This document shows, in pieces, positions 5,928-37,697 of a stretch of DNA of 64,000 bases. The DNA is from Microbacterium galbinum (GTDB lineage: Bacteria; Actinomycetota; Actinomycetes; Actinomycetales; Microbacteriaceae). Every line of letters begins with the position of its first letter. Position 1 is the stretch's first letter. The stretch spans positions 2,232,001-2,296,000 of the forward strand of contig NZ_JAHWXM010000001.1 of NCBI RefSeq assembly GCF_023091225.1, in the 5' to 3' direction. The position numbers were made by a program, and so were the translations under genes. Below the pieces are notes generated by a model, which was not told where the DNA came from, did not search any database, and saw nothing but the letters and a program-made list of their open reading frames with translations.

Positions 5928-6722
5928 CTAGATGGACGGTGCGGCCGGGGGCGGCGGCGGGTCGGTCAGTGCCGGGGGCGGACCCTCGGCACGGGGCTGG
6001 AAGCTCTCGAACACTCCGTAGGCGACGATGCGCTCAGCCAGCGAGTACAGGGGAGAGCACGCGGTGAGGGTGATGTAGCGCTCACCGGTCGCGACCTCGG
6101 GCATCTGCGGCACGTCGGCGAGCACGTCGGTCTGCGTCGGCTTGACGTACTCGAGGGTGCGGAAGCGGTAGGTGAACCAACCGTCCTTCGTCTCGACGAC
6201 GATCGCGTCGCCGATCTGGAGCTTGTCGAGCTGGTTGAACGGCTTGCCCCAGGTCGTGCGGTGCCCGGCCATCGCGAAGTTGCCGACCTCGCCCGGCATC
6301 TTCGAGTTCGTGTAGACGCCGATGCCGAGGTTGTCGAGCGTGCGGGCACGCGTCGTGCCGCCGTAGATGCCGTAGTTGTAGTCGGCACCGAAACGCGGGA
6401 TGTGCATCTGACCGAGCTGCTCGGTGTCGGCCGGTGCTGCGGGGATCACCGGCTCGTAATACGTCGAGCCGTCGTCGCCTTCGACGAGCGGGGGGAGCTC
6501 GGGCGTGGGACCTGCGGCCCACTCCGCCGAGACGGCCGCGCCCTCTTCGTTCTTCTGGGCGGCGATGATGATGTCGCCGATCCACATCTGCCACGCGACG
6601 AACAACAGAACGAGTACGCCGGCGGTGAGCAGGAGCTCCCCGAGAACGCTCGCGAACGTGGCGCGCGAACGTCGACGGGACCGTCGCGCGCGTCGCCCCC
6701 CAGGCACGACGGATGCAGTCAT
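5928..6722 (-). CDS. srtE: Class E sortase
   Basis: A 264-residue transpeptidase that cleaves a wall-sorting signal and joins surface proteins to peptidoglycan. A very basic N-terminus (RR-rich, 10-21) leads into one membrane helix (about 27-47); the catalytic domain is outside. His154 (MAGHRT), Cys222 (TLTACSP) and Arg231 (ERIVAYG) make the sortase triad, and a Pro-rich tail ends the protein. Class E enzymes in Streptomyces and Corynebacterium favour LAXTG signals; two proteins in this window end with LAGTG and LAVTG. It heads an operon with the 51-residue membrane protein and trpG. A TAAGAT box six bases before the ATG suggests a leaderless transcript. Confidence 0.92.
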   Translation of the reverse strand: MTASVVPGGRRARRSRRRSRATFASVLGELLLTAGVLVLLFVAWQMWIGDIIIAAQKNEEGAAVSAEWAAGPTPELPPLVEGDDGSTYYEPVIPAAPADTEQLGQMHIPRFGADYNYGIYGGTTRARTLDNLGIGVYTNSKMPGEVGNFAMAGHRTTWGKPFNQLDKLQIGDAIVVETKDGWFTYRFRTLEYVKPTQTDVLADVPQMPEVATGERYITLTACSPLYSLAERIVAYGVFESFQPRAEGPPPALTDPPPPPAAPSI

Positions 6723-35070: not shown

Positions 35071-36882
35071 TCACGGCAGCGGGCCGTAGAGCGACGGCGC
35101 CGTGCGGGCATCCGTCGCCTGCTCGAACGCGTACGCCAGACCGAGGAGGGTTCCCTCGTCGAAGTCGCGTCCGAGGAACTCGAGGTTCACGCCGCTGCCG
35201 GGCAGCGTCTCACCCGCGATCGTCTGCCCCATCGGCACGGTGACCGACGGCATCCCGGTGTTCGGGCTCAGCCGCATGTTGGTCCCCTGGGTCCCGTAGG
35301 CGTTCGTGCTCGGATAGACGATCGCGTCGAGGTCGAGATCCTCCATCATCTGCGTCACGAGCGTCTTGCCGGCCGCGAGCTGCACGGTGTGCGTACCGGT
35401 CTCGCCCGCCCAGCCCTGGTAGGTCGCTTCGGTGACCGCATTGCGCGCGACGTAGATCGACCGCCGCGAGGTGACGAAGCTGTTCGTCGCGAGGATGTCG
35501 GTGAGAGTGCGCGCCTCGACATCGGGGCCGAGATGCGTGGCGATGTACTCGTCGAGATCGTGGAGGAACTCGTTCGTCGACCCGGAGCCCTCGTTCAGAA
35601 CGGCGGAGAACCCGGACGGAGGAGTGATCGGCACCACGGTCGCGCCCTGCGCGGTCAGCGCTGCGGTCGCCTCGGAGAAGAGTCGCACGGTGCCGGCGTT
35701 GGTTCCCACCATCGACGAGACGTAGCCGATCCGCGCGCCCTGGAGCGCATCCGTGTCGAGGAACGAGGTGTACGACTCGGGCACGAGGCCCTCCTGTCGT
35801 GCGGTGACGGGATCGGCGTCATCGACTCCCACCACCGCATCCAGAGCGACGGCGGCATCGATGACGGAGCGAGCCATCGGCCCACCGGTGTCCTGCGAGA
35901 GAGCCAGCGGGATGATGCCGTCGCGGCTGGCCAGACCCACCGTGGGGCGGACACCGACGAGCTGGTTGTACGACGACGGGACACGGATCGACCCGCCCGT
36001 GTCGGTGCCGAAGCCGATGCCCGCGAGGTTCGCGGAGATCGCGGCTCCCGTGCCACCGCTGGATCCGCCGGCCGTCCGGGTCGTGTCGTACGGGCTCGCC
36101 ACGAGTGACGTCGCTCCCGGCTCCTGGAACGAGGAGAACTCCGAGACGAATCCGTAGGCGAACTCGTCGAGGCTGGCCTTCGCGAGGATCACGGCGCCGT
36201 CGCTGCGGAGTCCGCGCACCATCGACGCGTCGGTCGCGGTCTGGTTCTCGTTCCAGCAGGCGCATCCACCGGTGGTGACCATGTCGACCGTGTCGTAGTT
36301 GTCCTTCAGCGCGATCGGCACGCCCAGCAGCATGCTCGTCATGCCGTCGGATGCTCGGATCTCGTCGGCCGCAGCCGCATCGGCGAGGGCCTTCTGGTTC
36401 ACCGTGATGATCGAGTTGAGCGGACGGCTTCCGCCGGGCACGACCGTGCGGTCGTACGCGGCGATCCGGTCGAGGTATTCCTGCGTGATGCTCTGGGAGG
36501 TCGCGACTCCCGCATTCATCGCCGCCTGCATGTCGATCACGGATGCTTCGACGAGCTCGAAGGGACCGTCGTCGTAGATGATCCGCTGCGAGAGATCGGC
36601 GAGATCGAGGATCGTGAGCTCGCCGTCGGCATCGGTATCGAGGACGGCCACTCGGGACCAGTCCGGCGACGACGCCGTGAGGCCGAGGGATTCGGCGGCG
36701 ACGGACAGATCCGCGGCCGTCACCATCTCGTCACCGGTCACGTCGAGCTCGCTGTAGTACGGCGGGAGGCTGACGGTCGCCGGTGCCGCCGCCGTCGCTG
36801 CTCCGCTCGCCATCCCGGCCGCGACGATCGTGGAACCCACGACCGAGACGGCGGCGACGATCCGCAGGGTGGTCTTCTTCAC
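35071..36882 (-). CDS. Secreted amidase-signature enzyme with an N-terminal dockerin-like domain
   Basis: A 603-residue protein from the GTG at 36882, chosen because AGGAGAG lies eight bases upstream; an ATG at 36936 that overlaps the previous stop is the alternative and adds 18 residues. The signal peptide ends near AAATA at about 33. Residues 43-102 hold two duplicated calcium loops (Asp47, Thr49, Asp51, Asp58; Asp82, Asp84, Asp86, Asp93), the pattern of a type I dockerin. The rest is an amidase-signature hydrolase with Lys193, Ser274 (GGSSGG) and nucleophile Ser298 (GTDTGGSIR). Substrate is unknown. The gene just upstream encodes a wall-anchored cohesin protein, an obvious docking partner. 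The pair sits between dnaN and recF, where many relatives have other genes or none. Confidence 0.88.
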   Translation of the reverse strand: MKKTTLRIVAAVSVVGSTIVAAGMASGAATAAAPATVSLPPYYSELDVTGDEMVTAADLSVAAESLGLTASSPDWSRVAVLDTDADGELTILDLADLSQRIIYDDGPFELVEASVIDMQAAMNAGVATSQSITQEYLDRIAAYDRTVVPGGSRPLNSIITVNQKALADAAAADEIRASDGMTSMLLGVPIALKDNYDTVDMVTTGGCACWNENQTATDASMVRGLRSDGAVILAKASLDEFAYGFVSEFSSFQEPGATSLVASPYDTTRTAGGSSGGTGAAISANLAGIGFGTDTGGSIRVPSSYNQLVGVRPTVGLASRDGIIPLALSQDTGGPMARSVIDAAVALDAVVGVDDADPVTARQEGLVPESYTSFLDTDALQGARIGYVSSMVGTNAGTVRLFSEATAALTAQGATVVPITPPSGFSAVLNEGSGSTNEFLHDLDEYIATHLGPDVEARTLTDILATNSFVTSRRSIYVARNAVTEATYQGWAGETGTHTVQLAAGKTLVTQMMEDLDLDAIVYPSTNAYGTQGTNMRLSPNTGMPSVTVPMGQTIAGETLPGSGVNLEFLGRDFDEGTLLGLAYAFEQATDARTAPSLYGPLP

Positions 36883-36932
36883 AGTGGTGTCTCTCCTGGT
36901 TCTCGGCTTCTCTGCTCGGGTGTCGTGCGCGG

Positions 36933-37697
36933 TCATCGGGTCCTCCGTCGAACGGCGATGACGGTGCCCGACGCGATGGCGGCGATGGCTCCCGCACCGA
37001 GGATCAGCCAGGGTGCGGCATCCGCGCCCGTGACGGCGAGCGAGCCGTCCGTCGTCGTGCCCGATCCGGAACCGGAACCCGAACCCGATCCGGTGTCGGG
37101 ATCGCCGCCATCGGAGCCACCATCGGAGCCTCCGTCACCGGGCCCCGGCTCGGTGTCCTCATCGGCGGTGATCTCCACCGTCGTCGACGTGCCCGGCGCG
37201 TCGGAATCGACCGTCGACGATGCGGTGCTCGAGTCGACGATGCGTCCGTTCGCGATGTCGAGCGAGGCGTCGCCCGCCTCGAGTGCGGTGAAGGTGAGTG
37301 TGACCAGGGTCTGCGTGCCGGTCAGACCGGGTGAGGTGCCGAGCCGGGTCGCGGCGACCGCGATCTCACTGCCCGAGTCGGTCGCCGATCCGAAGCCGCC
37401 GGTCGGGAGGATCTCGCTGTCGGCGACGAACGCGAGGAGGTCGGGGTCGTAGGCGATGTCGAGCTCGTACGCGTAGGCGTCGACCAGGCCGGTGAACACC
37501 GCGCTGACGGTGATCGTGTCACCGACGGACACCGACGTCGGAGCGGCGGTGAGGGTGGCGGTTTCGTAGGAGTCGGGCACCACCACGGCCGAGGCGGGTG
37601 ATGCCGCACCGAACGCGAGGAGCGTCGCGGCCGTGAATGCGACGCCGGATGCGAGCGCTCGCAACCGGCGGAATCGGGCAGGGGGGATCTCGGGCAT
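36933..37697 (-). CDS. Cohesin-domain surface protein with a LAVTG sorting signal
   Basis: A 254-residue protein. The signal peptide ends at about ASPASA (36). Residues 45-170 fit a cohesin domain: VSVGDTITVSAVFTG, YAYELDIAYDPDLLAFV and the later GTQTLVTLTFTALEAGDASLDI strands are the recognised pattern. A Gly/Ser/Asp/Pro-rich linker follows (about 175-218), then LAVTG at 220-224, a hydrophobic helix and RRRTR, a class E-type sortase signal. It is therefore a single-cohesin scaffold fixed to the wall. The downstream gene encodes an amidase with a dockerin-like module; 50 bases separate them by the preferred start, or they overlap by ATGA. Confidence 0.87.
   Translation of the reverse strand: MPEIPPARFRRLRALASGVAFTAATLLAFGAASPASAVVVPDSYETATLTAAPTSVSVGDTITVSAVFTGLVDAYAYELDIAYDPDLLAFVADSEILPTGGFGSATDSGSEIAVAATRLGTSPGLTGTQTLVTLTFTALEAGDASLDIANGRIVDSSTASSTVDSDAPGTSTTVEITADEDTEPGPGDGGSDGGSDGGDPDTGSGSGSGSGSGTTTDGSLAVTGADAAPWLILGAGAIAAIASGTVIAVRRRTR

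Follow-up and report, generated by a model that had tools for sequence, protein, structure and literature searches.

An overlapping gene pair for a cohesin with a wall-sorting signal and a dockerin-bearing amidase in Microbacterium galbinum and its relatives

Cohesin and dockerin modules are known mainly from multi-enzyme cellulosomes, and the presence of one of each beside an amidase in an actinobacterium raises the question of what so small a pair might do. We addressed it in a 64,000-nucleotide stretch of the Microbacterium galbinum genome (the window), in which two overlapping genes on the minus strand, that of a cohesin protein first and that of a dockerin-bearing amidase second, lie between dnaN and recF; a first-pass annotation of this DNA had reported both open reading frames (ORFs), and we recovered them at the same coordinates and on the same strand. 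Our analysis points to a dedicated wall-display unit of one anchor and one enzyme, translationally coupled and joined by calcium-dependent docking, an explanation that we hold to be probable. It builds on the domains of the two proteins, the overlap of their genes, an anchor signal, a sortase gene in the same window, the genome-wide uniqueness of the two modules, their conserved adjacency in relatives and their natural fusions. The features of the locus are the following, in window coordinates:

36933..37697, minus strand: gene of the predicted anchored cohesin protein (P0001, 254 amino acids); ORF with a PF00963 match
37587..37697, minus strand: putative Sec-type signal peptide of the cohesin protein, residues 1-37; from sequence, cleavage site judged by eye
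37176..37541, minus strand: cohesin domain, residues 53-174; PF00963, E 4.4e-10; the fold of the homologue L086 resembles solved cohesins
36936..37040, minus strand: LAVTG sorting signal, hydrophobic stretch and RRRTR tail, residues 220-254; from sequence, NF058582 match below cut-off
36942..36946, minus strand: GGAGG, Shine-Dalgarno-like, within the 3' end of the cohesin gene; from sequence
36933..36936, minus strand: ATGA, overlap of the cohesin stop with the amidase start; from sequence, kept in relatives
35071..36936, minus strand: dockerin-amidase gene (P0002, 621 amino acids); ORF with a PF01425 match, E 4.1e-77
36784..36936, minus strand: N-terminal extension and putative signal peptide of the amidase, residues 1-51; from sequence, cleavage site judged by eye
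36882, minus strand: alternative amidase start GTG, residue 19, with AGGAGA upstream; from sequence
36580..36744, minus strand: dockerin domain, residues 65-119; PF00404, predicted calcium loops at 36709-36744 and 36604-36639
35092..36564, minus strand: amidase-signature catalytic domain, residues 125-615; alignment to the peptide amidase 1m21
5928..6722, minus strand: class E sortase, likely the anchoring enzyme; NF033747, 232.7 bits against a cut-off of 160

The two proteins and their domains

The Pfam protein scan places the cohesin of the window at 40.4 bits, above the curated cut-off of 24.1, and thereby bears out the cohesin-type domain of the first-pass annotation. The protein is composed, in order, of a putative signal peptide, a single cohesin, a linker rich in Gly, Ser and Asp, the motif LAVTG at residue 220, a hydrophobic stretch and the basic tail RRRTR. 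This is the layout of a class E sortase substrate, and the anchor that had been noticed earlier stands; LAXTG is the signal that class E sortases use in Actinobacteria of soil and fresh water (PMC5148588). The NCBIfam model for LAVTG anchors (NF058582) scores 19.7 bits on this protein, with a cut-off of 27. Among 91 non-redundant cohesins encoded as separate proteins, 83 have a sorting motif within their last 45 residues, and in 69 it takes the form LAxTG. The host genome yields two sortase matches, one of which is the class E enzyme encoded within the window.

When the window cohesin was searched against the sequences of the Protein Data Bank (PDB), no significant cohesin was returned, with 3l8q appearing at E 0.2. 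The comparison of folds was made on the relative L086: the cohesin of L086 was modelled with a block predicted local distance difference test score (pLDDT) of 91-98, and its top matches with both Foldseek and VIA are cohesins. Sequence conservation in the cohesin peaks in or beside strands 3, 5 and 6 and in the stretch TRLGTSPG; the per-strand means, at 1.93-2.6 bits with a loop average of 2.71, differ little among themselves, and for that reason we made no use of them.

In the amidase, the region recognized by PF01425 in the same scan has the peptide amidase 1m21 as its closest solved counterpart (E 1.3e-75), with the catalytic residues aligned: K211, S292 and S316 pair with Lys, Ser and Ser of 1m21, which we take to be the Lys-cisSer-Ser triad of the amidase signature family. 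The alignment to this peptide amidase (1m21/1m22, 5ac3), presumably of Stenotrophomonas maltophilia, starts at residue 125 of the window protein, and the dockerin has no counterpart in it. As the nearest solved enzyme is a peptide amidase, our guess would be that the enzyme deamidates peptides at the cell surface, either for nitrogen supply or for the editing of wall peptides. A dockerin-amidase of the actinobacterial type also occurs on a short contig (L140) that bears the title Stenotrophomonas maltophilia P13, probably through contamination.

The dockerin is N-terminal in the amidase protein and directly abuts the catalytic domain, with no linker between them. Two loops in it fit the dockerin pattern, residues 65-76 (DVTGDEMVTAAD) and residues 100-111 (DTDADGELTILD). 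The secreted amidase with two dockerin-like calcium loops described in the first-pass annotation holds in this respect, and its residues 43-102 match a count from the GTG at residue 19; the assignment to the type I dockerin family (PF00404) received 20.8 bits in the protein scan (E 4.6e-4), where the cut-off is 22.9, and 25 bits, above that cut-off, for the same stretch in the genome-wide search. The dockerins of two relatives, P0089 and P0102, reach 26.1 and 27.6 bits in the Pfam scan. Over both loops, ten predicted calcium-ligand positions are retained in 82-88 of 88 non-redundant relatives, a set selected by the first-loop pattern, so that the first-loop figures are partly selected and the second-loop figures are not. 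A profile built from 36 dockerin segments matched EF-hand proteins among the PDB sequences, with calmodulin at the top and no dockerin among the best 60 of 199 matches; these matches fit a calcium-binding pair, and alone they would not single out dockerins. Residues 10-11 of the loops serve as a rule for telling single from dual binding modes of dockerins, and since the two loops of the window dockerin are not alike at these residues, we would guess at one binding mode and not two.

Conserved pairing, gene overlap and natural fusions

The host genome (3.57 Mb, completeness 100) contains, at E<=1, exactly one cohesin match and exactly one dockerin match, and these lie in adjacent genes; that its single matches to the two families adjoin is more than chance. 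The traits of a cellulosome are absent from this genome, as it has one cohesin, and its only dockerin match is on the amidase and not on a glycoside hydrolase, in agreement with the earlier suggestion of one scaffold serving a single client other than a carbohydrate enzyme.

The pairing extends to relatives. In a genus sample of 149 genomes, cohesin matches at E<=0.01 occur in 19 and dockerin matches in 21, either being present in 26; when the loci were read, the pair proved to be present in 23 of these 26, at 24 loci of which one is fused, and G109, G071 and G137 have a cohesin or dockerin match without the amidase. In an order sample of 297 genomes, which is unbiased, the amidase is found at E<=1e-100 in 17, and every one of the 17 has the cohesin, 16 in an adjacent gene and one in the same chain. 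The cohesins of three of these genomes (G113, G214 and G431) were missed by Pfam alone and were detected with a profile of the cohesins of the genus and further relatives (E 2e-40 to 2e-27). The order sample also has cohesin matches below cut-off, without the amidase, in giant frames of G176 and G396, and dockerin matches without the amidase at five places (G155, G184, the second match of G191, G311 and G385). In a phylum sample of 386 genomes, cohesin occurs at E<=0.01 in seven and dockerin in 12; both are present only in the window genome and in G800, in the latter within one 2,158-residue frame.

A scan of GTDB genomes supplied our named loci, the best 80 of 178 relatives; its query was led by a fusion that contains the cohesin, and these 80 are therefore not an unbiased set. 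The cohesin is present in 72 of them, and in seven of the other eight the contig breaks off at the amidase. The pair is found in at least 15 genera, namely Microbacterium, Cellulosimicrobium, Demequina (in whose locus L103 the cohesin is divided between two frames), Isoptericola, Mycetocola, Glaciihabitans, Cellulomonas, Curtobacterium, Leifsonia, Frigoribacterium, Oerskovia, Okibacterium, Herbiconiux, Georgenia and Oceanitalea. The nearest named locus is that of Microbacterium galbinum SSW1-36 (L101), with an amidase 99% identical to that of the window. The remaining locus without a cohesin (L129:4310-4800, Microbacterium sp. MYb45) lies between dnaN and recF and was considered as a free dockerin-amidase; this was rejected, as a deletion that begins close to the cohesin start codon reaches into the first dockerin loop, and the locus reads as a broken one.

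A divergent second subfamily (L058, L060, L061 and L067) has amidases 42-44% identical and a cohesin partner of its own; by eye, both dockerin loops are present, with E in place of D as residue 1 of the first loop, and one genome (G136) holds both subfamilies (L047 and L067). In L060 and L061 the cohesin ORFs run on beyond the cohesin to a terminal membrane segment and lack LPXTG, and by virtue of that segment anchoring seems to be retained despite the missing sorting motif. Elsewhere, in another actinobacterial family, frames of about 2,130-2,210 residues carry cohesin matches (L170, L171 and L172), L172 having a dockerin match as well. Dockerin matches also occur in frames of 1,241-2,254 residues (L062, L065, L082, L083 and L085) with neither amidase nor cohesin in the fetched stretch; the genome of L082 also carries the cohesin/dockerin-amidase pair.

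The overlap of the two genes is conserved as well. In the window, GGAGG lies five bases upstream of the ATGA in which the cohesin gene stops and the amidase gene starts. Among 120 amidase loci, in which several genomes are included twice, 104 are cohesin-first, four amidase-first and four single-chain (these including L053 = L086, from the same genome, and L115, with a frameshift), and eight have no cohesin in view. At 88 non-redundant cohesin-first loci, a different set from the 88 relatives of the ligand count, the cohesin stop reads ATGA in 76, GTGA in nine and CTGA in three; an ATG or GTG hence overlaps it in 85, and the overlapping triplet falls within the open amidase frame in 86. A GGAGG-like word precedes the overlap in only 36 of the 88. 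The conserved overlap argues for coupling by termination and reinitiation, which would match the amounts of the two products. A scan for promoters and terminators found nothing.

In four natural fusion proteins, the cohesin and dockerin-amidase parts are combined in either order. P0162, from an isolate genome (L053 = L086:4501-6807; Microbacterium sp. 2FI), and P0165 are both cohesin-dockerin-amidase proteins with no anchor; P0166 has a cohesin, a sorting signal with a membrane segment, another signal-like segment and then the dockerin-amidase; P0164 (L073:45-2984, plus strand; a genome of family f20) has the reverse order, dockerin-amidase-cohesin, ending in a LAVTG anchor. P0164, P0165 and P0166 come from metagenome contigs, so that assembly errors are possible. 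Pfam finds the cohesin and the amidase in all four. Both dockerin loops are readable in P0162 and P0166; in P0165 half of the dockerin is missing and the amidase domain is of full length, from which it follows that the enzyme may fold without the dockerin. Fusion in both orders would be expected of partners that act as one. L115 was considered as a further fusion and rejected, because its LASTG-membrane tail is in another frame, which points to a frameshift or a sequencing error.

The place of the pair in the window is a different matter. In all 11 other Microbacterium genomes compared, 39-370 bases separate the ends of the dnaN and recF matches, as against about 2.9 kb here; the gap is about 1.0-1.1 kb in three genomes from other families of the order, and in two compared genomes from such families dnaN was not found at threshold. 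The interval holds two of 18 fetched cohesin loci (the window excluded) and seven of 82 loci in a wider count, and its members group together as a single clade in the amidase tree (8 leaves, support 0.998). We read this as one insertion in one clade, with no functional message in the place. Accordingly, of the earlier claim about this interval the insertion stands; a functional meaning of the site was rejected in view of the few loci there and their single clade, the position being incidental.

Docking and the competing explanations

As we envisage the unit, ribosomes that end the cohesin gene would reinitiate at the overlapping ATG, so that anchor and enzyme are co-produced, and the signal peptides would export both proteins. 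The class E sortase would then join the cohesin protein to peptidoglycan through LAVTG, and the N-terminal dockerin of the amidase would bind Ca2+ and dock on the cohesin, leaving the peptide-amidase-like enzyme held at the wall. Two approaches were directed at the docking itself. An AlphaFold2 model of part of a natural fusion, made from an alignment in which 67 cohesin rows were joined by 10 dockerin rows, the first of 74 (a combination that a local test had shown to align correctly), has a pLDDT of 84.1 with both domains folded; its predicted template modelling score (pTM) is 0.61, at which the relative pose of cohesin and dockerin is not confident, and the pose neither shows docking nor excludes it. 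A mirror-tree comparison was made on 74 non-redundant pairs, omitting L136, L115, L067, L060, L061 and L058, whose dockerin the script pattern missed, and L103, whose cohesin match is short; by eye, L136 retains both dockerin loops and L115 has lost the second. The correlations are 0.29 for cohesin-dockerin, 0.38 for cohesin-catalytic domain and 0.47 for dockerin-catalytic domain, and the partial correlation of cohesin and dockerin given the catalytic domain is 0.14, a value reached by three of 2000 permutations. The cohesin follows the catalytic domain better (partial correlation of 0.29 given the dockerin), and the signal, significant yet not specific, is of no use as evidence of binding.

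This asymmetry and the unsettled pose weigh against a docking pair, as do several further observations: the window dockerin falls 2 bits below the Pfam cut-off in the protein scan; the Pfam dockerin model is found at E<=0.01 in only one of the four fusions (P0164); three of the four nonetheless retain both loops, which are superfluous in a pure tether unless docking takes place within or between chains; and a recognizable sorting motif is absent from eight of the 91 cohesins. One alternative is that the EF-hand pair serves the amidases of this subfamily as a structural calcium-binding element and docks with nothing, the cohesin being a co-operonic surface protein with some other ligand. The linker-free junction with the catalytic domain, the calmodulin-type matches of the dockerin profile with no dockerin among the best 60 of 199, the unconfident pose and the persistence of the loops in fusions all lean this way. 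Against it stand the facts that cohesins and dockerins are known binding partners and that these are the only ones found in the genome and adjacent, the presence of the cohesin in all 17 amidase genomes of the order sample, the fusions in both orders and the full amidase domain that P0165 keeps with half a dockerin. On balance we regard the structural explanation as unlikely, albeit the most serious of the alternatives.

The other alternatives grant the docking. The cohesin might be a general wall receptor for dockerins of other cells or for divergent ones that escape detection, with the amidase as one of several clients; scavenging scaffoldins are discussed for Paenibacillus guangzhouensis in a section of PMC11557425, and dockerin matches unrelated to the amidase occur in G071, G137, G191, G385 and G155. 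However, the host genome has a single dockerin even at E<=1, and all 112 loci with a cohesin in view have it beside or within the amidase (104 overlapping or adjoining with the cohesin first, four amidase-first and four in a single chain), which makes such a receptor very improbable. We give marginally less credence still to a docked pair that is membrane-held or released, with LAVTG unused: the score of the anchor model below its cut-off and the motif-less membrane ends of the divergent cohesins L060 and L061 would suit it, but LAxTG, the class E sortase signal (PMC5148588), ends 69 of the 91 cohesins, and the window itself encodes a class E sortase. The one-anchor, one-enzyme wall-display unit is thus the explanation that we carry forward.

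Relation to known systems and significance

Non-cellulosomal cohesin and dockerin modules have reportedly been surveyed by Peer et al. in 2009, and a cohesin of Archaeoglobus fulgidus (2xdh) is a known example. In the glycoside hydrolases of Clostridium perfringens (PDB 2jh2, 2vo8 and 2w1n) the non-cellulosomal cohesin is a module of the carbohydrate enzyme; here, in contrast, it constitutes a short, stand-alone protein, predicted to be anchored, with an amidase as partner. ScaE of Ruminococcus flavefaciens is alike in having a single cohesin and a covalent wall anchor, formed through LPXTG and sortase (PMC2930009), but it anchors a whole cellulosome via ScaB and CttA, whereas here there is one cohesin for one enzyme in a genome with no further cohesin. 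As non-cellulosomal cohesins and single sortase-anchored cohesins are already known, the pair is a variation on these.

A screen of 305,693 genomes required a multi-cohesin protein together with a dockerin glycoside hydrolase (PMC11557425), and a pair of one cohesin and one amidase would escape it. Three cellulomonad genomes are reported to be without cohesins or dockerins (PMC3544764), and Cellulosimicrobium cellulans F16 likewise (PMC4562250); we find the pair in other Cellulomonas species (L121, L154 and L157) and in other strains of C. cellulans (L114, L116 and L118). Among the papers listed by searches of the open-access literature, most subscription papers being outside it, we found none on a cohesin/dockerin-amidase pair, no paper combining 'cohesin domain', dockerin and Microbacterium, and none combining dockerin with 'peptide amidase'.

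If the binding is true, these loci would offer dozens of naturally matched pairs for studies of display and of the evolution of specificity. The unit would be about the simplest natural use of cohesin and dockerin, with one anchor, one enzyme and one operon, in at least 15 genera. More tentatively, as a view that we find possible and rather short of likely, cohesin and dockerin may form, in many members of a single actinobacterial order, a two-part joint that is coupled in translation and divides a wall enzyme into anchor and catalyst, with covalent fusion having evolved more than once and in both orders. Given that the dockerin meets the catalytic domain without a linker, docking could influence activity; calcium or the anchor could control both the place and the activity of the enzyme.

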